A stretch of 64,000 bases of DNA from the NCBI RefSeq assembly GCF_038396675.1, contig NC_088922.1:67625001-67689000 (forward strand), read 5' to 3'. The position numbers and the translations under genes were made by a program. Shown here piece by piece: positions 13,969 through 57,629 of the stretch. Below the pieces are notes generated by a model. The model had not been told where the DNA came from, did not search any database, and saw only the letters and a program-made list of their open reading frames with translations. Numbering within the stretch: the stretch's first letter is position 1; each line of letters begins with the position of its first letter. This DNA comes from Hydra vulgaris (taxonomy: Eukaryota > Cnidaria > Hydrozoa > Anthoathecata > Hydridae).

Positions 13969-15109
13969 ATGTCGAAAAATAATACGTTTTCTCCAATTGA
14001 ATATGCTGCTCCAATATCTGATTTGATGAATCTGACGAAGAAAAGATTGGATAAAAGAAAGACTATAGATGAACAAAACCCTGCAGATCATAACGATAGC
14101 GAAACAAGTTCAAGTTTTTCATCCGGTCAAACAGAAATTGAAGTTGATGCTCAGTCCATTGAAGAAGCAGCTAAAACTACATACGAATATTACTCAATCG
14201 AGGAGGAAACATCAAAGTGGATATGCAATATAATGTAATAGTAACAGACCTAAAAAGTACTCTTGTAAAACATCAAAGAGTATATTAGATTACCATCTTG
14301 AACATGATCACAAAATAATAACGCCGAAAAAAAAACGAACTATGAGTGGCTTGTCAAAAGAAGTTAGCGATAAGATTGATAAAGCTCTTTTAATTTTCAT
14401 TATTGCCTGTTGTCTTCCATTTATGTTGGTAGAAAGTAGTGCATTTAAAGAATTTGTTTTGTGTTTAAATCCAAAGTATAAAGTGCCTTGCCGAAAAAAG
14501 TTAAGATCTCTTTTAACTGATTTATATCGAGAAAAAGTTGAACTTTTGAAATCAAAATTATTATCAATTAAAGTTTTATCTATTACTACTGACGGATGGA
14601 CGTCCTGTCAAAACTTTTTTTTGGATCCAAATTATAAAAGTTTTCAATTCTTTGAAAAGTACGAAAAAAAGAAATATTTAAAAATTGTGAAAGAATTTTT
14701 GTCAGATTTTTATCTCTCAAAAAGAGTTGGTGAAATAATTCCAATTAAAAAGGTCACAAAGGAATCAAAAAAATTTAAGTTGTCATTTGAGGATGAAGAA
14801 GATGATTCCGGACGTGATAGTGACAAAAATGTAACCTTAGATTTAAAAAAAGAAATCAGTGAATATATAAGATTGTCAGTGCACGAACAAAATGTTTTAG
14901 AGTTTTGGCATCGAAATCAATATGTTTTTCCAATATTGTATTGCATTTCAACGATGATTTTATGTACACCTGCTACCAGTGCACCAAGTGAGCGCCTTTT
15001 TTCTGATGCATTAAACAATTTGTATGCTAAGCGAAACAGGATGACGGCTGAATGTTTTCAAATGTTGATGTTTTTGTACGAAAATTTGGAATTTTTTAAT
15101 TTGGTTTAA
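13969..15109 (+). pseudogene. BED-finger hAT transposase (ZBED-like), internally deleted
   Basis: ATG at 13969 opens an acidic N-terminus (89 codons, stop at 14236). A Cys/His segment in another frame reads KYSCKTSKSILDYHLEHDH, the second half of a BED zinc finger. The second ORF from 14342 has hAT RNase-H-fold start motifs (CCLPFMLVESSAFKEFV, SITTDGWTS), then jumps directly to the C-terminal part and the dimerisation domain (PATSAPSERLFSDA, YAKRNRM). The join after TTDGWTSCQN removes most of the catalytic domain. Known: hAT transposases combine a BED finger with a C-terminal dimerisation domain. Inference: this is the relic transposase of the surrounding 9.36-kb element. Confidence 0.8.
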
Positions 15110-28386: not shown

Positions 28387-30501
28387 CTAGTGGCCCCAAT
28401 GAAGTAAAGCAAAACTAACAAAATAATTTTCTCTAGGTAATAATAGGCATTTTTTCAGTATAGAAGTTATTGGAAAAGCAAAAAATTGATCAGATAGTTG
28501 ACTAACTCTAAAAACATTGAGCAAAGAAGATTCACAAGGATAGGTGTAGAAATTTTCTTTTAGTCCAAAAACACGTGTAATTATCATAACATCGTCAGCA
28601 TCAATAACATTTTCAATAAGGACAACTTTTCCATTATCAAGTAAAGCACAGTTGGTGGAATTTGCAGAAAAATATGAGAAACCAGCATATTCAACCTATT
28701 GCTTTCCGTAGTATCCTAATGTAGGGCCGTTGCTGTGTATCCTTTTCAAACTTGCTATCAGGTTCATATTGCAACTAACATATGTGTTGCTATCAACTCT
28801 TTCTGACAAACGTCGACACAACTGCTGCAGTGGCATGTGACCACTTCTTAACAATCGTTTCATAATGCCTAAAGCATTTTCAAAAGGAAATGCACTGTAC
28901 TCATCAAGTGAACCATACTGTCTTACATCATCACAAATGTGACAAAGGCTATGCATTGTGTAGCTTATGGAACTGCTGCCATATAATTCTGGCATTTGCA
29001 TGACAAATATGTTTAACAACTTTTCTGCATAATCAACATGCGTCCAACACATATTTGGATTAGCTTAAATACTAATTGCAACATGCAATAACATAAAATG
29101 CTGGTACAGATTATTGGTAAGATGGCTTCGTAATACAAGAGGCCCAAGGTAGCACAAAAATAACCGAAACTCTGTGGCTTTCCATCAATCAATGTCCTTT
29201 AGTGATCTTGGCTTACGTACAAATTCAACAGTAACATTAGCTGCAAAATTTTTCAAGCCATTTGAAATTATATCTGCAATTAGCGTGCTTATTTTTGCAG
29301 CACGTTTTCCACGAATCCAACGCAGAAGTAATCTTCGTGTGGCACCAAGACAAACTAGATGCATATATTCTAGTGGAAATTGAGAGATGTGACCAATATT
29401 GAGCTCTAACAATGGGGATACTGCATCTGGTTTGTGATGCTGAACTTGTTGGAATAAAGCAAATGAAGCATCAGTTCTCTTCAATGCATTTATATCAGGA
29501 AATACAGTTCTATTATCTACCCTAGTTCCCTTTTGAATGCATCGCTCACAACCATAAAACCTATTATGTCCTTTTATACATTTAACAAAAGCACGTGCCG
29601 GTGCATCACACACAAAGCCTTTAGCATGCATGGTAAAGTGCTTTTCACCTATAAATAAACCTTGTTTCTTCAAAACATTGAATTCAGCTACAAAACTAGC
29701 TAGAAAAATAGCTGAACTTTTTGGTTTGCTGTTGCCACAAAATATGCTAACTACAAACAGTTTATAAATATTGTCGCCAAGTGTAACACTGCAAAGTATT
29801 GGCCAAAACTGTTTTCCCGAGCTCTTATACAAAGGCAATCCATCAATGCTAAACAATAAATTGACTTTGCAGCTTTTAATGCTGTTAAACACTAGTAAAT
29901 TAGTTAACTGATGTTTCAAACCAAAATAAACAAACTCTGCTTTTTGCCCATACATGTCTTGCATGATAATAATGTCAGAACTGCTTTTTGTTTTCAATAA
30001 GGTTCTACTATCTTTGGGCAAATCTGGATGTTGTTTTGACAAGATCTTTAGTAAGTCTGATAGAGCACTATGTGTTACGTTGTGTTTGACTGACCAGCAA
30101 ACAAGCAGCTCTTTAAAAGTAACCTCATCCTCAGCCTCTTCATTGTCACTGGAACAAGAAGGATAATAGCCTTGCTCATCATCAGTTACATTACAGTCAT
30201 CATCGGCATTGATAGTCAAATTTGAGGATTGGTTTTCATCAAAATGTGATATGTCACCAAACTCAACATTTAAGGATTTTAATGTATATTCAACCAAACA
30301 ATTGTTATAAGAGTTTTGAGATAACATATTATGATTAATAGATTCATCACTAAAGTTTTTTGCCTTTTCAAAGTCACAGTTAAGTAATTCATTCCTATTA
30401 TCAGCATTACTTGCTGAGTGAATTTTACTTAAATGTTGCTTAACTACTCTTTTAATATAATGTGATTTAGCAGATCGAGTTGAACTTATTGATTTTTTCA
30501 T
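28387..30501 (-). pseudogene. CMC (EnSpm/CACTA-type) transposase, three nonsense codons
   Basis: ATG at 30501 (MKKSISSTRSAKSHYIK). The same frame continues for 705 codons to 28387, broken only by stops at 29185-29187, 29065-29067 and 28696-28698; no frameshift. Motifs in order: DLLKILSKQHPDLPKDSRTL, LLFSIDGLPLYKSSGKQFW (first Asp), FVCDAPARAFVK (second Asp) with CX2C (YGCERC) exactly 19 residues after that Asp, PLEYMHLVCLGATRRLLL, then MHSLCHICDD (HX3H) and SAFPFENALG with Glu exactly 20 residues after the second His. This is the DDE plus zinc-ligand plan of the CMC/Transib/RAG1 group. The gene lies upstream of the DUF4806-type gene on the same strand. Confidence 0.8.
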
Positions 30502-30550
30502 TACCTATAAAATTGCATGACGCTATAGCATTAAAAAAAAAGTAAAATAA

Positions 30551-32064: not shown

Positions 32065-32147
32065 CGTTAGCGATTCCACGGCTTAACAAAAAACATTTGA
32101 TGTTTATCAAAAAAACACGTAATTTTTATAAACTTTGCTCTGCACAG

Positions 32148-32339
32148 GTCAGAAATTTAAGGTTTAAGTTTACTATCCGAGTACCCCAAAAATGTTAACA
32201 AATATAGTAAGTGGGGCATCTGGACACTTTATTTTCATATTTAGAAAAATCTGGGAGGTATCACATTTTTAGAAAATTGACATAGAAAATCTGCTAAAAA
32301 GTCATTATTTTCGTACTTAAAAAAACTAAATATACTGAC
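32148..32339 (+). repeat. Left terminal inverted repeat (192 bp)
   Basis: GTCAGAAATTTAAGG at the outside to ATATACTGAC at the inside. Pairs with 35452-35643. Confidence 0.92.
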
Positions 32340-32527
32340 AGAAAGTTAAAGTTTATTTAAAAAAATGTTCATATACCAACTTTTCAAGGTCTTTAATTTA
32401 ATATTTATACATAAACATTATTAGAATACACAAAGTTGGTCAAAAAAACATTTTTTATTAATAATATTTCTTTTTGACTACGCATTTTTATTTTTATTTT
32501 ATTATAGATACCTAATATATAGAATCT

Positions 32528-35044
32528 ATGGCTCCTCTGCTCTCTAAGGAGAAAAGAGAATACCATTTTAAAAGAAATCATGTACTTTTTCAAAAGATCA
32601 TTTGCTGTTGCTACCTTGAAAAGAACAACAAATGTGTTCCAGTTAATAAAAATTTGGAAGGTCTGGTTCAAGTTTTCTGTAAGCCTGAGTTTTCACTTAA
32701 AGTATTTGCCTACCCTACAGGATTATGCCCAGGTTGCAAGAAAAACTTGTATCTCTGTAAGGCTGGTAAAACTATTGCAGACACAGTTTCTTTAAAATGG
32801 AAAAATTCTGATTTGTCTAGCTTGCAAACCTCTAGAGATTGCTCAGTATTATGCAGTATATGCAGTCAAGGAAGAAATAGATTATTAAATAAAAGTATGA
32901 AAAAGGGAACTAGCTCAACACTGAAACTTTGCCAAATATGTTTATGTGAAGTTGCTAAAGGTAAACCCCACAAATGTTCCCCTTTAAAGAGTAGCACAAA
33001 TCTTTCTGAGAGTAAAATTTCTAAAAAAATTTCTAAAATTTCTAAAAAAGTAAAAGAACAAGTAGCTTCTTTCCTTCTTAAAGAAATTTATTCTGATCAA
33101 GGGCAAAGTCTAGGAGCTCAAGCCATTCTCAGAACAGGTAAAATATTGTTAAATAAAAATAGCTATCTACGTTTTTAAAATAACAGTTTATATTATATTA
33201 AGGAGGTAAAAGTATTCATATTACACTCGGTACTCGGGAAAGTGACCAGAGAAAGATTCCTTATAATGAAGTAGAAGTTTTGGTAAATACCTTAGGACTT
33301 AGTCAATTGAAGTCAAATAAAATGTTAAAAACTTTGAGGAGAAGCGGTGTAAAGTTTGAGTCAAACATGGAGAAAGCCCTGGATGAAAAAAGTAAACTAC
33401 TTTCCAACTTTTATGTCACTGAATTATTAGACTTTCAAGAAAAAGAAAATGATAATGACTATGCTACAGTGAAGAGACACTTGGTATATATTGAAGATAT
33501 TACAGCATTTCTGGATTTTGTAATGAAATATCGAGGGCAGGTTCCACAAAACACATTTGTAAAGGTTGGAATAGATTCAGGTATTTATATTTAATTTATT
33601 TAACTTATATTACTTATGATATTTTAATTATCGTCTTTTTGAAAACTTGTTTTAAAAAATATTATTTGTACATATTTATATACAAATATGTATGTGTGTA
33701 AGTATATATATATATATTATAGGTGGAGGATCACCGAAAGTTATAGTAAATCTGTTTGATCCAACCAAGGACAGGACAGAAGATAGCAGCTCCTTAGGAT
33801 CATACTCAGGAGCAAATACGTCACTTGTTTTAGCTTATTGTGAAAGGGTAAGTGAGAATCATTCTAACATGACAATGATTGTGGAAAGATTGAAGTTGCA
33901 TGAATGCAAGTACTCATTGGCTTCTGACATGAAATTAATCAACATATTGCTAGGAATTTCGGTGTGTTTGTTTTAAATAATTTTAAGATAATAAGACATA
34001 TCATGGTAATAACTATATTAGGAAAAGGTTTTTTTTACCCTACAATATATTTATAAATTGAATTATAATATAAAATTTTAGGCTCATGGAGGAAAGTATG
34101 CTTGTGCATGGTGTGAAGGTTCTTCAGAATTATTTGCTGGAGAGTTAAGAACATTTCAATCTTTGAATAATTACTATGAACTGTATTCATCTGCAGGATC
34201 TCCGGTGAAAAGAATGAAAGAATATAAGGTATAAATGAATAAATATATTGTAAATATTTTCGAAATTTATCATCCATTACCATTTTATCATTTTAAATAG
34301 GATAAAAAAAATTTATTTCCATATATTTAGAATGTCATTAATCCTTGTCTGCTTAAGATAGAAGACAAATCCCTAAGTATAATAAGAGAGATTCCATTAC
34401 CAGAACTTCACCTTCTGATGGGATTTGTTAACCATGTGGCAGCATTTATAATGCAACTTTGGCCTGGATTTATAGATTGGGTCAAGAGCATTGGATGCCT
34501 TCGAAAAGGTTACCATGGAGGAACATTTGAAGGAAACACGTGTAGAGAGATACTTAAAAGTTGCGACAAACTTGAGTTGATAATGCCTGTTGAACTGTAT
34601 CCTCTCTTAGAAACAATGAGAAAATTTTATAAGGTTGTTCATGGTGTCTTTGGCTATAAACTTGACCCAAACTATTCAATTTTAATTGAAAGTTTTACAC
34701 AAAGCTATAAGGATGCGCAAAACTATTGCAGAGAGGTAATTGCTGTTTTTTTTACCCTTTGTATTTAAAACTAAGTTATTGATAAACATATTTATAGTAA
34801 GCTTTTTTAGTTTTTAGGTAAACAGCTCACGGTTACTTGGAAAGTACATGCTGTAACAGCACATCTGGAAACATTTGTTGATTTGAGTGGCCTTTCCCTT
34901 GGGCAGTTTAATGAGCAGACATCTGAATCTTGCCATTCCAAGATGAAAAGTGTAATAAACAGGTTTGGAGTCTCGCAGTACAGCAACAAACATAAGGAAA
35001 GAAGCAAAAGAATTTCGGAAGTGTTCAGTTCAAATAATTTATAA
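32528..35044 (+). CDS. RAG1-core-like DDE transposase, six exons, 670 aa
   Basis: Exons 32528-33137, 33203-33580, 33723-33961, 34082-34228, 34331-34735 and 34811-35044 all have GT/AG borders and total 2013 bases, exactly 671 codons with the TAA; no stop or frameshift. The N-terminal part is Cys-rich (GLCPGCKKNLYLCK, LCSICSQGR, LCQICLCEVAKGKPHKC), probably zinc-binding. Core: D328 in VGIDSGGGSPK, D398 in SDMKL, CX2C at 417-420 (YACAWC) exactly 19 residues after D398, HX4H at 606-611 (VHAVTAH) and E628 or E632 in FNEQTSESCHS. From memory, mouse RAG1 has D708 then C727/C730, H937/H942 and E962, an almost superimposable layout; ELHLLMGFVNH also recalls a RAG1 LH-x3-G segment. It probably catalyses DNA cleavage and transfer in the nucleus. 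Alternative label: an undescribed branch of Transib/Chapaev-like CMC transposases. Confidence 0.8.
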
Positions 35045-35451
35045 GTTATTGAACATTATTTGTACATGAAAACATAAACATTATTAAAATCTTTAGTTAA
35101 AAAAATTTGTATACTTATTCAAAAAGACATTATAAATATATTAGTACATACAGTTTTTGAAATATTTTATTTATTATTTATTATATTATTATTATTTATA
35201 TATATTAGGTTATTAGACATACAATACTAATATTTTACTATATTACAATACTAATAAATTATTTATATACTATCAATATGTTCTACTTTACTAAGCATAC
35301 TATGTTCCTAATATAATTCAAGCATATCTAAACCTTTTTCACCAAGTTAGATATATCTAAGAGCTGTCTAATGAAGTTGATGTGTAGATACAAAACTTAA
35401 GAGCATAAAAACTTGGAATATAAAGTCATTTTATGTTAATTTTACTGTTCC
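35045..35451. other. 3' noncoding part of the RAG1-like transposon
   Basis: AT-rich, no ORF; between the stop codon and the right inverted repeat. Confidence 0.6.
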
Positions 35452-35643
35452 GTCAATATATTTAGTTTTTTTAAGTACGAAAATAATGACTTTTTAGCAG
35501 ATTTTCTATGTCAATTTTCTAAAAATGTGATACCTCCCAGATTTTTCTAAATATGAAAATGAAGTGTCTAGATGCCCCACTTACTATATTTGTTAACATT
35601 TTTGGGGTACTCGGATAGTAAACTTAAACCTTAAATTTCTGAC
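35452..35643 (-). repeat. Right terminal inverted repeat (192 bp)
   Basis: Pairs with 32148-32339 with three mismatches. Confidence 0.92.
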
Positions 35644-36119
35644 TGTTACATCTTTTTGTATGGTTAAGCCAGCCTTAAGGTTTTTCGCATCAGTTAGTGT
35701 TACTCAATCTCTTTCCAACCATATATAGAAAGTATTAAGCTTTGTATGGCTTCATTTATATATTACCATATCTTGAAACCACTTTTCATAAAAAAACTTG
35801 CCGCGGGAACGCTTTTTTAAAACAAAGCTTTTGAAGGTAAGGATTTCTAAGATCTTAAACACATCTAATTTTTATGAAACTTTCCATATTTATTAAGAAA
35901 AGGACGGGGAATCTAATGAAATCTGGACGTTTCTTAACATTTATACAAAAAATTTTAGTTCTCAGCGTTTAAAAACTTCAAGGTTGATTTATATAGAAAA
36001 AAAAGGCTTTTTGAAAAACGTCCAGGTGGAAATTGCAAGTTTAGCCTTTCCTCTTTTTAAAACAAGTATTTACTTAAGTTTACCTAAAGAATTGGCACTT
36101 AGGATTTGCATATATAAAT

Positions 36120-36125
<6 letters not shown>

Positions 36126-36204
<79 letters not shown>
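36126..36204. repeat. (TA)n microsatellite in element Y copy 2
   Basis: Expanded TA tract where copy 1 has only a short TATATATATATA run. Confidence 0.95.
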
Positions 36205-36206
<2 letters not shown>

Positions 36207-36578
36207 TTTTGTTCGCGTAATGACGTTATCTGTTTTGATTTTTGCGTTTGTTTTGGTTATGAAAATTAAATTAAAAGTGAAAGTATGATTCTTAAAATTT
36301 TAATCAAATGAAAATACATCTTTTACTTTTTCCAAGATAAAAGGTCTGCATTCTTCAAGAAAGTTAAAATCTTGATTTTTACTATTTTAAGTACAGGTTG
36401 CTCTTATTTAAACTGTTTTTTTCAAAACAAAAACCTAAAAATAGTATTCAACAAAAGCTTATGAAAATGGAGTTGTGTAAAAAATTCTTTATTTCTTTTT
36501 ATATTTATTTGCCTCTATTTGTTTGTTGATTAAATACTATGAACTCTTGTAATAATTATTTTAATTTCTTTTTTTTAG

Positions 36579-37915
36579 GTGTTGACATTAACAATAGTCT
36601 CACCAAAATGGTTGCTCCATTTATAAGTCAAGAAAGTAAGTCAAAATTATAAATTAGGAATACTGTAGCACAAATTTTTTTCATTTTAATAATTCTATTT
36701 ATTGAAATCAAAATAATCCACCCCTTACTTTTCTTTATGTCACTTAAATTAAGTTTAATTTTAATTTTAGTCTCTGACACTGTTATGGATTATCTAAATA
36801 TTAATGGAGGCATTGTATCCCACAAAAATCCAGGTTTGGTTTTAACCAATCGCCATTTTTTACAAATTTGTAAAGAAAAAGATAAATTTAACTTGACATG
36901 GCCAAATCTTTCAGTATTTTTTACATCCTTGTTTAAATACCCTATATCTAGAGTTATGCTGATCAAGTGCCTTTAAAAGTCAAAAGATTTTATTGCAAAA
37001 GTAAATCGTGGCAAAAATTTTGATTTAAGAAAGTATTTTTTAAGCTCTGCTTTATCTTTTATTGGTGCTTTTCCGGATGTTGTTGGTTTGTCGCCTTCTG
37101 ATGCTTGTTCTACCCCAACTTCTATCCACAATAGTGAAATTGTTCCAAATCAAATTACTGTTTTTGTGTCTTCTGATTTAAACTTGCAAATTGCTAATGA
37201 TGATTTTTTGTGTTCTGTTACCCCAAACTCTATTGTATACACCCCTTTAGGAAATGATTCTGAAAATTTTCTTCTTGAAGCGCAAGTTAATGAAGTGAAT
37301 CTGCCAGTTTCCAATTTGGATAAAAAACTACTTATATTATCAGGTGATTTGACCTATCAAATAAAAAAATACAAACAGAGAATTAATCATCTTAAATTAC
37401 AAATGAGACAAATTAATAAAAGATGTAATAAATATAAAAGAAAATATCAAGCAATCTTATCAAAATATAGTGTCAGAAATGTCAACAAAAGAGAAGTTAG
37501 AAAGGATTGTAGGATTAACCAATTGTTGCAAAAAAATTTAGATTAGAAAAAGAAATTGATTTGGCTAGAAAACGTTCACAATCAGATCGACAAAAGGCAT
37601 GGTATTTTAAGAAAAAAATTGAAAACACTGTTTTGAAAACATCTGATGAAACAAATGATTCAATCTTAAAGGAGAGTTTAAATTACTTTGAAAATCTTTC
37701 AGAAGAGCTGAAGGAAAGAGTTAACTTTTTGTTAAAAAAATGTAATTGATGTTTTTGAAGGAGGTAGATATAATGATGAAATTCGCTCTGTATATTATGA
37801 CCTTTTAAGTAAATATGTTTCTGTTAACAATGTTGAATCAGTTATCAGAACTGTACTACAAAAAATGACTGGAATTTCATGTGGTACACTTCCAAAAAAA
37901 TTTGGATAGAAGTAG
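36579..37915 (+). pseudogene. Unrecognised transposon gene remnant, coiled-coil region
   Basis: Exon-like 36579-36635 (NNSLTKMVAPFISQE) joins 36771 onward (SDTVMDYLNINGGIVSHKN). The frame runs to 37546 with one stop at 36974-36976. After an A-run slip the protein continues EKEIDLARKRSQSDRQKAWY, then after another slip FEGGRYNDEIRSVYYDLL and SVNNVESVIRTVLQKMTG, stopping near 37910. The middle is Lys/Gln-rich (YQIKKYKQRINHLKLQMRQI) and should form a coiled coil. The GRY-DEIR..YYDLLS end resembles conserved ends of unclassified transposon proteins I have seen in cnidarians and insects, but I cannot name the family. Three lesions mark it as dead. Confidence 0.5.
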
Positions 37916-44416: not shown

Positions 44417-47126
44417 TTAATGTTGGTTTGTAATTTGAATTAACTTTGAACTATTTTTTTTTCTTTTCGGTAAAGGATTATTTTCAATATCCATGATATT
44501 ATTGTTAGTAGATTGAATGTTACCAGTAATTGGACAAACTGAAAATTGTGACTTGATTGTATTGTCATTGTAGCCAAAATCTTTGATAGATGGATTATCT
44601 TTTCTGCGACCAATTGCACGTTGTCTTCCAAAATAGTTTTCAAGGTCATCTTGGCAGAATCTTTCAGAAAATACAAATCGAACACCATTTTCAAGTAAAA
44701 ATTTAACAACTTCTTTAAATGAATGCACTGTAATTTGCAAACCTTCATAAGTTTGAGAAGAAATAAACATTTTTGATTTTGAGCTCTCATCAAAACTTCC
44801 TTCTCGTTGATCTATAGATTCTTTCCACAATTTAAAGTATAAGAGGAAGTTATCTAACCAAGCAAATCTTGAATCATCTACTGATTCATAAGGTTTTAAA
44901 AATGGCTTTCTTTTTGTTATATGCTCAACACTGTTCTTTACATTCAAACAATCAAAAAACATATCCATCATTAAACAAAATTCTGCAGTTCCAGCAGCTT
45001 CTGGTGGTCCAAACTGCTTTAAAACATTTCCTACCGTTTTGCTCAATACTTGGGATGCAAGACGTACCCTCATCACAGAATATGGTGTTAAGTTTACATG
45101 ATCGCTTGTTAGTTTAGGAACAAGTTTTAAACCTCTTTCTAAATCAGAATTATAAAATGTTGAAATATGATTCCAAAGAAGAAAAAATCCACTATTCCAC
45201 ATGTAGCGTGATTTACATCCAGAACCAGAATTACTTAGACAGTTTCGAGAAGTTTTGATTAGATGAGGTACATCTGCAAAGAAAAAGATGAATCTATTAT
45301 CATTACTAAATAAGTTTTTAGTGCGATATATAATTTTTTTCCCTGAGCCACCATCTAATTTCTTATGCATTTTGAAAAACTTCCTATTTGGAGATGCACC
45401 ATCTGCAGTTGCAGCTATGACTTTCAAATTTATACTCTCCAGATAACGCACTGCTTTCCAAAATATTGGCATAAGTTGTGTCGATGTTACTCCAGTTGTG
45501 GCAAATGTTGCTAGACTATAGGAAAGTGGGTTTACTATACTTTTAACATGAAAAACTAAAACATAAGAGGCTAGCTCTCTCACATTTTTAAGTGTTGCAT
45601 AGTTAGTTTGAATATCTCCTAAATCTACAAATCCAATTAACTCACCAGAGTATTTATCCCAAACCAAATCTTCTTGAACTTTCATTTCATCAAACAGAAT
45701 TGTAACAAATCGTTCAGAACTAGAGAAGTTAGAAGTTTTATTTGCAAGATCATTAATGACTTGAGGATTAAAACCTCTTGAAGGATGTATATAATTTTTG
45801 TAGTCTCTCAAGGTGCGTAAACTTGGAAGAACTAAAAATCCTGAACCAGTCTTACTATCAAAACGCAAATCAGAATATGCTGACGAAGATTTAACTGCTA
45901 AATTGAGACAAAATTTTATTATCATTGGATGATATTTTACACTACAGGGGCTAGAAGCTTTAATACTTTTGCTGCTCATTCCAAAATAGTTTCATGAAGT
46001 CTGGAATATTTTTTTGATTAAAACCAGAGTACAATGTTTTAAGGTCTTGATCAAGTTCTAAATTAACTTTTTCACTTTCCATATTCAAAACTGTTTTCAT
46101 ATGTTCAATCTGATTTTCCAACTGTTTGCATTTTAAACGATGTTGTTGCAAACTTAATTTAATTCGTTCGGTGGAGGTAAATTTAAGAGGAGCATTCAGC
46201 TTTGCAGGTTGGTTTAAAGTTTTATTTTTATTATTTACTTCATAATTAGTTTTAAGTTGCAAAGAATGGCATGAATAACAACAACTCTGGGATTTTATTA
46301 AAATATTACAATTAAGTGAACGATAAAACTCATCTTGATTTAATCTAGGTTTAAGAGGAAGTTGCTTAAAAAGCAAGTAGTTAAATTTTTTAGTTATAAC
46401 ATGCTTTTCAAATTTAAAGTTTTGGTTGATTAAGTCTAAACTTTTTACTTCAACACCAGGACAAAGAACAAGAGTTTCAATATGACTTATAAATTTTGAT
46501 AAAGAAACATTTAAAAAAGATCCTTTATATTGAAGGTACAAAAGATGATCTATTGGTAACATCCAACCAAAAATTCTTACACAATAGTCTAGCAACTCGT
46601 CGACATAAATTTCATACTTTGGTAAAATATGTTCTGGAGAATTACAAGTAATTACTATAAATCTATCATCCAAAGAAATTTTCCAACAATCATCAAGAGA
46701 GAGCTTTAAAATACGTTTTGTAAAATCATCAAAAGATTTGTAACATGACGTTGTAGTTCGAGAAATTAACTCTTGCGTCACTAAAAACTCCTCACGTTTT
46801 GTAATGGATATTGAACTTCGCTGTGATTGATTACTTTTCTTAGGGAGATTTAGAGTTGGCAATGCTCCATCCTTTAAAATTTTTCGAGATGAGTAAACCC
46901 AAAATTGATCTTCAGTAAAGTGAAGCTCGCAAATATAAATGTTGAAGGAATCAATTCGTTTTTTCAAAGAATCATCGATGAGTCTGTCTCTAGTAATTAC
47001 GTTAATAAGCTCATTACTCCATTTCTTATTTGCATCATTAGTTGGAGTAGGAACTTTGAAAATGCTGATACCTTTGTGTCTTCTTGAAGTTGAACAACCA
47101 AATATTGCACAATTTTCACCAGGCAT
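44417..47126 (-). pseudogene. P-element/THAP9-like transposase, one frame break
   Basis: The start is the ATG at 47126 (MPGENCAIFGC), which opens a THAP domain (CAIFGCSTSRR, FKVP, YICELHFTEDQF, LPTLNLP; residues about 1-90). A coiled coil precedes the break (KCKQLENQIEHMKTVL). The frame ends at 45960 after FWNEQQKY, while a second frame, open from 45979, continues (SSPCSVKYHPMIIKFCL) to 44417 for 520 codons; the overlap is 20 bases at an A-run. The P-type catalytic region follows: LFDEMKVQEDLVWD, ATADGASPNRKFFKMH, DVPHLIKTSRNC and CQDDLENYFGRQR, giving candidate Asp, Asp and Glu residues. Apart from this slip it looks complete (about 900 residues). Whether it is a mutation, a ribosomal frameshift or an assembly indel cannot be told here. 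Confidence 0.85.
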
Positions 47127-47333
47127 ATCAAAAAAAATCAATTTCAATAAAAATAGAAAGACAACTTTAAAAAATAACAGGCAACCGCTAACAACAACAA
47201 TCTTTTTGTGCAGGTTCGGAAGTCCGGAAACGAGAAAAAACAGTTTGAAAGAGTTAAAACAATGCGCTATTGTTCGCTTCCAAACTATATCTTTCTTATA
47301 ACTATGTAATGAGAAAGTTCGATCAAAATACAA

Positions 47334-48545
<1,212 letters not shown>

Positions 48546-48909: not shown

Positions 48910-49242
48910 GTGAATTGATTTCTGCTTGTAGGCATAGGAAAAAATATTTACTTTCTAACTTTGATTCCGGCGATTAGCAAATATCGGATCACGCACACTT
49001 GACGTCAGATGCCGTTGCAACGCTAAATTTGTATTTTTTATAACGGTTTTTATTTTATATTTGAATAATATGGCTGATGATTGCCGAATGGCATGAAACT
49101 TCAAGTTCCATTATAAAGTTGTATTTTCTCTTTTAAAATATTTTAATAATATTATTTGATCTATTTTTTTCAAAAAGATATCGATCACTCTTAAACAGAC
49201 AAGAGTTGTAGTTCCAGCAATATACAACATTTATCAATAAAT
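48910..49242 (+). repeat. Upstream pLTR of the Penelope-like element
   Basis: Direct repeat of 51368-51701. It begins GTGAATTGATTTCTGCTTG, copied from the last codons of the ORF, and ends CATTTATCAATAAAT. Confidence 0.88.
49069..49113 (+). ncRNA. Hammerhead ribozyme-like motif, upstream pLTR
   Basis: Core CTGATGA (49074-49080) and GAAA (49095-49098). Stem I is ATGG with CCAT, stem II TGCC with GGCA around a GAAT loop, stem III ACT with AGT around a TCA loop. Predicted cleavage lies after T49107. The short stem III fits the minimal type I hammerheads known from Penelope-like elements. The base pair next to the core in stem II would be U-U, so activity is uncertain. Confidence 0.72.
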
Positions 49243-49284
49243 TTATTGCTCCTCCTGTTGAGCACTCTTCTCAAGTCGTTAAAA

Positions 49285-51435
49285 ATGGAGAAAGTTAACT
49301 TCAATTATTCAATAAAAAATATACCTATACCATCAAATAAAGAATACAAATTGCGATTACTTGAAAAAACTGAGATATTGATTAAAAGGATGCGATGGAA
49401 GGCGTTTTTCTTCTTAAATCACCAGTCTAACGGTATGAATGATATTAATAGTAATAGTAATAATTATACCAAATTTAATTCTTATGGTATTAACACACCA
49501 CATTGTCCACAACAAAATAAAGATATGTGTGCCTTTGAATGCGGTTTATTCAAATTAATTAAGAACATACAATTTAGGAAGGTTCAATGCGCCTTCCAAA
49601 ATAATTTAAAAAAAGACATTTCTTCAATTCAAAAATCAACGTATACTTACACTTACGCAGATAAAACATCAAATTTGTATAAATTATCAAAAGACGAATA
49701 CAATAAGTTGTTAATGAACGCTACTACATCTAACTATAAAAATACCAACCCTATTATAAAAGATCACATTAATAAAGAAGGAAAAACTATTCTAAAGAAT
49801 CATGACGTTTTTAAAAAAATCAATATAAACAGTTCTTCCAATTGTTTCATTACATTAAAAGATCATAAACCTAATTTTTTAAATAATCCTACTGTTCGTC
49901 TAATTAACCCAGCTAAGAATGAAGTTGGTAGAATAAGTAAGCATATTTTATCAGATATTATCACCAACCTAAGAAATATTTTGCAATTAAATCAGTGGAT
50001 TAGTACACAAAATGTAATAAATTGGTTCAAAAACATCAATGACAAACATTTTTATAAATTCCTTATTTTCGACATCGTTGACTTTTACCCTTCTATTAAT
50101 GAAAAGCTACTTATCGACTCCATAAACTTTGCAGAACAATACGTTTCCATTGATGCTGATCACAAATCTTTAATTCTCCACGCGCGTAAGTCTTTATTAT
50201 TTACCAATGATCAAGTTTGGATTAAAAAATCGAGTGGTTTGTTTGATGTTACCATGGGTGCATTTGATGGAGCGGAAGTGTGTGAGTTAGTTGGTATTTT
50301 TCTTCTCTTCCGGATTTCGCAATTTTATAAAAAATCTGATTTTGGATTGTATAGAGACGATGGCCTAGCCGTGTTTAAGAACGCAAACGGTCCAAAAATG
50401 GAAAAAATTAAGAAGCATTTTACTCAAATATTTAAATAATACAACCTCTGTATTTCCATTCAATCTTATATGAAAGTTGTTAACTGCCTTGACGTTACAT
50501 TTGATCTTAATAACTGCACTTTTCAACCTTACCATAAACCTGATAGTACGCTAAATTACATCCATGCTAGTTCCAACCATCCACCAAGCATTTTAAAACA
50601 ATTACCAACCTCAATTGAACATAGATTATCTTCCAATTCTTCAAGCAAAAAAATTTTCCAAAAGTCTGCTCCTATTTATAAAGACGCATTAGAAAAGTCT
50701 GGATTTCACACCAATCTCCAATATCATTCGAATCTAAATCCTTCTAATACTAATAAACGAAAAAGAAATATAATATGGTTTAATCCTCCTTTCAGTAAAA
50801 ATGTGGTAACAAAAAATGGACACCTTTTCTTAAACTTAATTGACTTACATTTTCTATTACATCATAAGCTCCACAAAATTTTCAACAGAAATACAATAAA
50901 AGTTAGTTACAGCTGCATGCCAAATATTCGATCAATTATTAATTCACACAACCAGCAAATTTTGCACAACAAACTCACCACTAATGATATAAATTGCAAC
51001 TGCATTAAGAAAACTGCATGCCCGTTAAATAACGAATGTCTATCAAAAAACGTTGTATATAAAGCCACTTTACCATCACCTAATCCCAGTCTTACGGAAA
51101 AATCTTACATCGGTATCAGTGAAAACTCATTCAAGCTCAGATTTGCAAACCACCTTAAATCATTTAATGCAACAAGGTATAGAAATGATACAGAACTTTC
51201 CAAAGAAATCTGGAAATGCAAAGACGCAGGTAACATGCCTATAATTAAGTGGAACATAATTAAACGATGCCAATCTTATAATCCAGCTACAAAAAAGTGT
51301 AACCTTTGCATCAGTGAAAAATATTTTATTATGAATTTTGATAATGGTTTACTACTTAATAAAAAAAGTGAATTGGTTTCTGCTTGTAGGCATAGGAAAA
51401 AATATTTACTTTTTAACTTTGATTCCGGCGATTAG
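49285..51435 (+). pseudogene. Penelope-like RT with GIY-YIG endonuclease, one nonsense codon
   Basis: First in-frame ATG at 49285 (MEKVNFNYSIKNI). The frame is open to the TAG/TAA end at 51435 except for one TAA at 50437-50439, after KKHFTQIFK; the downstream half is in the same frame, so a single base change could explain it. Motifs: CFITLKDHKPNF, NPTVRLINPAKNEVGRISKH, LIFDIVDFYPSI (catalytic Asp), VTMGAFDGAEVCELVGIFLL, GLYRDDGLAVF (catalytic Asp pair), then CNCIKKTACPLNNEC, VVYKATL and KSYIGISENSFKLRFANH, which form the Cys motif and GIY-YIG-type nuclease. The last codons lie inside the downstream pLTR. The element type copies RNA at chromosomal ends or nicks (known for the class). Confidence 0.85.
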
Positions 51436-55139: not shown

Positions 55140-57629
55140 AAATGTCCTGAGATAAACAAAAAATTTGAATCTTTTTCAATTTCGATGCACCATAAGCTTT
55201 TTCTATGCGTCTAAATTTAGGCCAAATTCCTGACCCCAAAACAGCCCAAAAAATTTAATTTTTATCCAAAATTTCTTTATCTCAGGACATAAAGCTCATA
55301 AAAATGAACATCTGTACAAAATTTCAAATCAATTAGACAAATACAGCTCCCGCAATCTTATCCAGAATATGAAAAACTTTACAACAGAGAAAAATGCAAA
55401 TAAAACTTTATATTTTGAAAATACAAATATATTAACACTTGAAAACAGGTTAAACCCCCCCCCCCCTTTTCATATAATGTTCCTTCTTCATCATTGTGCT
55501 TATCATCAAACCCCTTCCTTGTTGCTCTAAGCTTTTTTCTTTGTTTTTTAAACTTTTCAGATGATTTTATGTCCATAAGCTTTTCACGTAGCACATCACT
55601 ATTTTGAAAACCGTTTTTAGTAAAATGTCCTGGTAAAATTCCTAAACTGTGAAGAACATCTATCATACCAGTTTTACCATCATTAAACTGTATAACAGCA
55701 GATGCAACACTAATTTCAAGTGTTGACCTACCCACGTACACATTTTTTGGGCATTTTGTCCAAATTACATTATTGAGCGATTCATTTGCATTCTGTGTTT
55801 CTCCATCAAGACATCTTTTTAATAACTTGTTTGCACCAAGATCTTTGTGTGAAAAAATAGGTTTTATAATTTCACAAACAGCTTCTGGAATGTTTATACT
55901 GTTTTTATAAGTCAAAGTTTGATTAATCTTGTCCCTTTGATATTTACACCACGAATCGCTAGTACGAGGACAATACTTATGGCGTTCTTCATCGCTGCTG
56001 CTTTCAGAACAGTGATGAATTAGTCCTGCTATGGATTTTTTCATGCCATACAAATTCCATAATAGTTTTGCAATGTATTAATGACTTTATCTGTCATCCT
56101 TCCTTTTCCAGTAAGTCTTTTACCATCTTTTAAAACTTTTCCCTTGTACAATACTTTAAGAGAGCGTAAACGAGACCCAACTCTTTTTTGAACATGACTG
56201 ACACATTCACTTTTTTCAATTTTATACCCTGGGTAAACATTATTACTTTCTATATTTTGGTAAGACTTGCTGTCACCATCACCACAGTATTTTGTATAAC
56301 GCAGTTTGTTAAAAACAGTTGATCGTTTAAATATTTGCAATGCCCCAATAGCTTCCATTGCACCTGCACTACCTTTGTGATTAATTGGGCAAATATGTGA
56401 TTCTTCCCAGTTATTGTATCCCGGTATATCTTTGTTTCTCTGCCAATATTGGCAACTTTTACAATCCTTTATGAGAGTTTGAGTGTCAACACACTTCCCA
56501 TTACTAATAGCTGTAACAACACCGTTCAGCGAGGAAAAACCGCGTCGCTGCCATGTTCCATCAACACTTACAGTAACATTTTTTATATCAGGGTCACCAA
56601 TAGTAGACTCACTTGTACGTTGTGCTTGTGCAGCTGCTCGCTTCATTGAATCTTGGGCAACTTTGATATAAGACGAATGCAATTTATAGACAATGTTATT
56701 GTATGTTTTTTTTTGCATTGGTGGTGGACTGTTTATTATGTTACAAAAACTTTCCATTGCAGCATAACCTTTTCCAATTTCTCTGAAAGCTACACACATT
56801 CTGATATTAATGTCAAACGATTTCATGCCTTGTGTTTCATTATCACTGTTTTTTTCAATTTTTTTTGAGGTAAAAAACTCATTTTGCCATTGACATTTTT
56901 TTGCAGTGCAAGACAAAACAAGTTGATGTGAAAATCCTTTCTTTCTTGATAAATCATTATTCAATTTTATTAAAGATTGGCATTTTGGACAAGAACCAAC
57001 AAGATTTAAAATTGAACTCAAGACATCATAATTAAATATAATGTAACATTCAGGATTACTATCTTGACTAATACTTGGAGTATCAGAAGTAGGTAAATTT
57101 AACTTTTCAGCAGATGCTGATTTGCTTGAAGAAGTATTTGTTAGAGATGTATTATTTGATGTATTATTTGAACTTGAAGTAGTATATTCAGAAGTCAAGT
57201 GAATTTTATTCGCAAGTAATCTATAACATTTACGTTTTTTGCTTTTAGACTTATTTCTTCTTTCTGCAGAACCCATGTTGATAGTATGCACTTTTATCGA
57301 GTTAATATATAGTAATAAGCCAATTCAACAACGTTGTTCTTTCACACCATGTCATTTAAACATAGAAAAACAAAAAACAAAGAAGTAGCTATTGGTTTGA
57401 GTGCTTAGATTTTGTAAAATTTAGTTAAAATTGCCTTATTTTGACGTTGCTATGAGCGTTGCTAGGGGAAGCAAAATCACCCTACTAAATTTAAACTGTT
57501 TTTTTAGGCCTTTTTATGTTTTTTTGTAAAATAATATGTATGTTTTTAAAAACAGCAATAGTTAAAGTTTTTAACTAATCAACTTTTGAAAAACTACTTT
57601 TTTCAATGTTTTTTAGCAGTCTACCACCT
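55140..57629 (-). mobile_element. Mutator-like element inserted in the LINE
   Basis: It interrupts the LINE between its endonuclease and reverse transcriptase. TAATGAT occurs at both junctions (55133-55139, 57630-57636) and may be the target duplication. ATGTCCTGAGATAAA at the left edge recurs inverted at about 55275-55289. One gene on the minus strand. No long terminal inverted repeat is visible between the two edges. Confidence 0.65.
55379..57291 (-). pseudogene. Mutator-like transposase domain protein, one frame break
   Basis: ATG at 57291; a better start may be the inner MGSAERRNKSKSKKRK, which opens a basic, then Ser/Thr-rich N-terminus. CPKCQSLIKLNN and CTAKKCQW suggest a zinc-binding segment. 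The catalytic-like region reads VTVSVDGTWQRRGFSSLNGV (Asp), CPINHKGSAGAMEAIGALQI (His/Glu) and YTKYCGDGDSKSYQ (Asp). The frame ends at 56041 after LQNYYGICMA and reopens one base over (YGMKKSIAGLIHHCSES, DSWCKYQRDK, LLKRCLDGETQNANESLNN) to 55379. This is the Mutator-like transposase domain type common in cnidarian and insect genomes. Near-complete apart from one indel. Confidence 0.75.

Follow-up and report, generated by a model that had tools for sequence, protein, structure and literature searches.

Positions 32143 to 35643 of a 64,000-nucleotide stretch of Hydra vulgaris DNA (the window, C3:67625001-67689000) very probably hold a Chapaev-type cut-and-paste DNA transposon (CMC, 'CMCT' clade), an assignment set by published descriptions of the hallmarks of this group. 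In the available text of PMC4079192, these hallmarks are CAC/GTG ends, target duplications of 3 to 4 bp, and a DDE transposase with C(2)C, LH and H(4)H motifs. The Hydra family has CAC/GTG ends, a 4-bp duplication, and the C(2)C, LH and H(4)H motifs together with a predicted DDE triad, and its Cys-rich N-terminal region, probably of the Chapa type, lies before the core as the Chapa domain does (PMC4079192, PMC4411706, both as excerpted). The comparison is with descriptions rather than with a named Chapaev sequence, and among the features tested it brought out no difference. The definition of the CMCT clade, given in the accessible part of PMC12730594 as C(2)C, H(3-4)H, mostly CA..TG ends and duplications of 2-5 bp, also fits the family.

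The first-pass annotation had suggested that the element could be an undescribed relative of RAG1. This suggestion found no support in the comparison: its ends, 4-bp duplication and motifs are published Chapaev hallmarks, and Chapaev has already been put in one superfamily with Transib and RAG1 (PMC4411706, as excerpted). Hydra is included in published trees of these groups (PMC4411706 and PMC4079192, in the text available), and no published Hydra element of this kind is named as this family in the portions of the literature searched, the Repbase reports lying outside that literature. The element well exemplifies a kind already known and is no missing link, and the picture of V(D)J origins, in which the available text of PMC4411706 already gives Chapaev a place as a distant relative, is unaltered. 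What is gained is a defined Hydra Chapaev-type family, with ends, duplications and one open gene, that can serve as an outgroup in comparisons of the RAG1/Transib core and of the N-terminal zinc domain.

The features of the element and its surroundings are listed below in window positions, with the strand and the basis for each.

32139..32142, no strand: left copy of the 4-bp target duplication, TCTG (host-repeat copies unbroken here; 4-bp duplications elsewhere)
32143..32362, no strand: left terminal inverted repeat, starting CACAG (arm match and the ends of other copies)
32528..33137, plus strand: exon 1, with the ATG and the Cys-rich N-terminal domain, probably Chapa-type (splice model, homologous N-termini)
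33203..33580, plus strand: exon 2, ending in the codon that follows D328, the first catalytic Asp (splice model, P0001, family alignment)
33723..33961, plus strand: exon 3, with the second catalytic Asp, D398 (splice model, P0001, family alignment)
34082..34228, plus strand: exon 4, with CX2C, C417 and C420 (splice model, P0001, family alignment)
34331..34735, plus strand: exon 5, with the LH motif (H485) and the GN motif (splice model, P0001, family alignment)
34811..35044, plus strand: exon 6, with HX4H (H606, H611), E632 as the likely catalytic Glu, and the stop codon (splice model, P0001, family and RAG1 profile alignments)
35429..35643, no strand: right terminal inverted repeat, its outer CTGTG missing, as is part of the target duplication on this side (arm and junction comparison)
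35644..37519, no strand: continuation of the host dispersed repeat to the right of the element, its left part being the sequence just before 32143 (35643-36136 and 36177-37519 aligned to repeat copy L051; junction compared)

The inverted arms of 192 nt with three differences that were noticed at the outset are real; they start at 32148 and end at 35643, with mismatches at positions 75, 83 and 188, and similarity between them extends to 215 nt at 95% (32148-32362 and 35429-35643). The element had been placed at 32146..35645, and both limits needed correction. Comparison with other copies locates the outer CACAG of the left end outside the arms as first noted, so that the element begins at 32143, while the right end stops at about 35643. 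All 10 of the 10 two-ended copies have CACA(G/A) on the left and (C/T)TGTG on the right, whereas the window copy has the left end only. The description "apparently intact" therefore applies to the open gene but not to the transposon as a whole, since the outermost CTGTG of the right end is missing, together with part of the duplication there. The left duplication of the window copy is TCTG, and no right duplication of its own is visible.

Further copies with the same termini, proposed as a check on the original reading, were sought in the whole genome (911.5 Mb, 15 contigs), and the family comprises at least some tens of terminal repeats. The 215-nt repeat gave at least 41 genome matches, 39 of them beyond the window copy and one of these a 29-base fragment, among the 40 of 98 candidates that were scored, a number well beyond coincidence. 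Nearest to the window copy are L009 and L011-L014, with 96-97.5% identity to it along more than 3 kb. Eighteen stretches were taken for comparison, of which a script found 11 to be two-ended and 7 one-ended; with L010 left out, ten remained for counting duplications. Six full-length exons without stops or frame-breaking gaps are present in none of the 18 fetched copies, some of them partial stretches; a 15-base gap that is frequent in exon 1 among the copies is in frame.

The 4-bp flanks match exactly in 6/10 two-ended copies, with one mismatch in 3/10 and two mismatches in 1/10, and at this base composition the chance of at least 6/10 exact 4-bp matches is about 5e-11. The flanks match at 5 bp in 0/10 and at 2 and 3 bp in 1/10 each, both times in L015, the one copy of ten that matches better at 3 than at 4 bp. 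The duplicated 4-mers vary (for example TCAA, TCGT, ATTA, TTTA, CAAC and AGAA). The window element itself sits in a dispersed repeat that is older than the insertion; of the other copies of this repeat, at least 39 match the right flank (40 of 573 candidates scored). The sequence of the empty target site is unbroken in all three of the host-repeat copies read (...AAACTTTGCT CTGTTATATC...).

The duplications also bear on Chapaev3, which has CAC/GTG ends and the motif set in common with the Hydra family. According to the available text of PMC4079192, Chapaev3 makes a 3-bp TWA duplication, whereas the Hydra duplications are 4 bp and varied.

More distant relatives in the same genome also speak for a Chapaev-type family. 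Three of 12 stretches fetched (L054, L056 and L059, at 36-38% identity; the other nine had no clear ends by script) end in CAC/GTG and are flanked by perfect 4-bp duplications (TGTG, ATTA and GGAA). In L059 (1233-4228), both ends, flanked by the exact GGAA duplication, read CACAGTG, which is also the V(D)J signal heptamer.

The high identity of the nearest copies and the 6/10 exact duplications indicate that the family was mobile fairly recently. The first-pass annotation had spoken of a recently active transposon, which stands as far as recent movement is concerned. Because its gene is open but its right end is truncated, the window copy could at most supply transposase, and movement of the copy itself is probably not to be expected.

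The gene model proposed from the sequence held. Six exons with GT/AG borders sum to 2013 nt, encoding 670 residues and a stop, and the key residues lie where they had been placed (D328, D398, C417, C420, H606, H611 and E628/E632). Introns 2 to 5 are supported by the Hydra vulgaris protein LOC124815287 (P0001), to which residues 244-670 of the spliced product align without gaps, at 96% identity, across all four junctions; intron 1 is based on the reading frame and on homologues that continue across it. P0001, itself a Hydra vulgaris record, also provides a second open reading, but one that starts at an internal Met. As originally stated, no RAG2-like gene is present, the longest open frame in the element outside the exons being at most 95 codons.

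At least 28 protein relatives were found at E <= 0.001 (7991 candidates scored). Those with a named source organism come from Hydra vulgaris or the beetle Brassicogethes aeneus, and none of the 28 carries a functional name. The core residues are almost invariant in an alignment of 27 of these relatives, from which a fused gene model (P0028) was left out. Among rows with a letter at the position, the count is 27/27 for D328, 26/27 for D398, 27/27 for each of C417 and C420, 26/26 for H485, 25/25 for H606, 24/25 for H611, 24/25 for E628 and 24/24 for E632. The spliced protein matches no Pfam model, PF12940 included, at E values up to 10. Weak Pfam matches among the 27 members are to DUF1280 in seven (best E 0.0014) and, in one member, to Herpes_UL52 (E 0.00041), the latter taken to be a chance likeness of Cys patterns. 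Neither the protein nor the family profile retrieved a RAG1 or Transib chain when the PDB was searched by sequence, and four pattern matches in viral contigs yielded no confirmed relative.

The placement of the element on the RAG1/Transib/CMC branch, as an animal cut-and-paste transposon with introns, was borne out. For profile-to-profile comparison, the family was represented by 25 of the 28 relatives (all but P0012, P0024 and P0028), and Transib by the Hydra protein L038 with 24 of 120 relatives listed (513 found). L038 matches the RAG1/Transib Pfam model PF12940 at E 3.8e-12, and its profile retrieves 6pqn, a Transib transposase of known structure, at E 6e-186, with RAG1 chains at lower scores. 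The 6pqn match identifies the L038 profile as Transib, and for the same reason the idea that the L038 family is Chapaev3 was dropped. The Hydra family matches the Transib profile at E 1e-4 with a probability of 52-58%, and the core alone does so at E 3.5e-5 with 72%. The score of 45.3 lies beyond all of 100 column shuffles, the best of which reaches 30.3; the profile read in reverse gives 19.6, and the N-terminal part by itself 19.1. In the full-length alignment the first Asp, second Asp, CX2C, GN, HX4H and E motifs are matched between the two profiles; LH is not paired.

The similarity to RAG1 itself is weaker. Against a profile of 30 vertebrate RAG1 cores (of 76 proteins found), the family scores 29.2, with E 0.014 and a probability of 3%; none of 40 shuffles reaches this score (maximum 27.9). 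This weak alignment pairs D398, C417, C420, LH, GN, H606, H611 and E632 with RAG1 counterparts, namely the second catalytic Asp, CX2C, LH, GN, HX4H and the catalytic Glu. For scale, Transib compared with RAG1 by this pipeline gives 48.5 and E 2.9e-5, and the distance between the Hydra family and Transib may thus be about equal to that between Transib and RAG1. RAG1 of V(D)J recombination differs from the element in being a host gene rather than part of a transposon; the element has no RAG2 partner, and no sequence match to RAG1 was detected without profiles.

The same comparisons weigh on two further classifications. One would make the element an EnSpm/CACTA transposon in the strict sense, which would account for the CAC ends and the C(2)C motif that are common to both. 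It is very unlikely: the hhalign score of the family against four Hydra EnSpm-like proteins, presumptively so labelled by ourselves from motifs without Pfam support, is 16.0 and within 50 shuffles (maximum 25.9), and there is no Pfam match at E 10. This set is small, and the same four proteins do no better against Transib (14.8) or RAG1 (23.6). As far as these profiles see, the scores against the three sets suggest that the family is nearer to Transib and RAG1 than to EnSpm. The EnSpm families in the accessible part of PMC12730594 have 3-bp duplications, against 4 bp here. In favour of the EnSpm label, Repbase has merged Chapaev into EnSpm (PMC4455052, as excerpted), and the element could therefore be listed in that database by this name.

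The other classification, as a Transib or a ProtoRAG (RAG1-RAG2) transposon, draws on the significant similarity to the Transib profile, the CAC ends, the motif order D, D, CX2C, GN, HX4H, E seen also in 6pqn, and RAG1's catalytic and zinc pattern. Transib typically makes 5-bp duplications (PMC4411706, in the text available), whereas the Hydra family has none in ten copies, and PF12940, which Hydra's Transibs match, is unmatched here. For ProtoRAG a second, RAG2-like gene would be needed, and this partner was rejected because there is no open frame for it. A Transib or ProtoRAG identity is accordingly extremely unlikely.

The N-terminal region of the transposase had been described as a novel Cys-rich domain. 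It is Cys-rich, and exon 1 and 15 homologous N-termini have CX2C pairs and a GX2H motif in common, but novelty is doubtful, as this is probably the Chapa-type zinc domain already described for Chapaevs. The available text of PMC4411706 reports this complex zinc finger in Chapaev, Chapaev3, TransibSU and RAG1, and that of PMC3124419 states that two zinc ions are bound by this part of RAG1. When compared with a RAG1 N-terminal profile, the Hydra N-terminus scores 26.6 with the CX2C pairs in register (60 shuffles, maximum 23.9), whereas Transib, as an unrelated control, scores 24.6 against that same profile. The single-sequence score was reached by 2/100 plain shuffles and 8/100 with Cys and His fixed, and the N-terminal profile did not find RAG1 in the PDB.

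Rather than being nested in Chapaev, the family could be a lineage of its own, as yet without a name, in the wider CMCT clade, with Chapaev-like ends and duplication length, as might be argued from the 28 relatives without a functional name, the lack of a Pfam model and the distant similarity to Transib. This is unlikely, and it is likewise improbable that the family is a CMCT lineage between Chapaev and Transib, combining a RAG1-type N-terminal zinc domain, a RAG1-like core and a 4-bp stagger. If true, such an intermediate lineage would date the pairing of zinc domain and core to before the RAG1 line split off. Every Chapaev hallmark that could be tested was found in the family, and so a separate name is not needed.

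For the Chapaev-type element, a mechanism can be proposed from the chemistry of Transib and RAG1. The core motifs D, D, CX2C, LH, HX4H and E, which follow one another as they do in Transib and RAG1, predict a DDE transposase with an RNase H-like fold. This protein would bind and pair both terminal repeats, and would cleave at the CAC border with an active site formed by D328, D398 and E632; C417, C420, H606 and H611 would hold a zinc ion. The ends would then be joined to the target with a 4-bp stagger, and fill-in by the host would produce the duplication.

The window contains several other features. A satellite-like stretch at 31850-32031 matches a tandem satellite with a spacing of about 157 bp on several contigs. 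A hAT C-terminal dimerisation region is encoded at 14234-15106 on the plus strand (E 1e-16), and a P-element-like pair of frames lies at 44420-47387 on the minus strand, with matches to THAP (E 3e-10), a TNP-like RNase H domain (E 2e-27) and a GTP-binding insertion (E 4e-15). Two abutting frames at 49195-51432 on the plus strand look by eye reverse transcriptase-like and then GIY-YIG-like, with no Pfam match at E 0.01. A Mutator-like transposase frame occupies 56044-57324 on the minus strand (E 5e-63); towards the end of the frame there is a weak ubiquitin-like match that falls below the cut-off (E 0.004). Finally, a 439-codon open frame at 29188-30504 on the minus strand has an Asp before CX2C and an MH motif but no Pfam match, and presumably has the look of an EnSpm-type transposase; near copies elsewhere are 96-97% identical and read up to 707 codons. 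The window thus looks like one with two different CMC-type elements about 2 kb apart.
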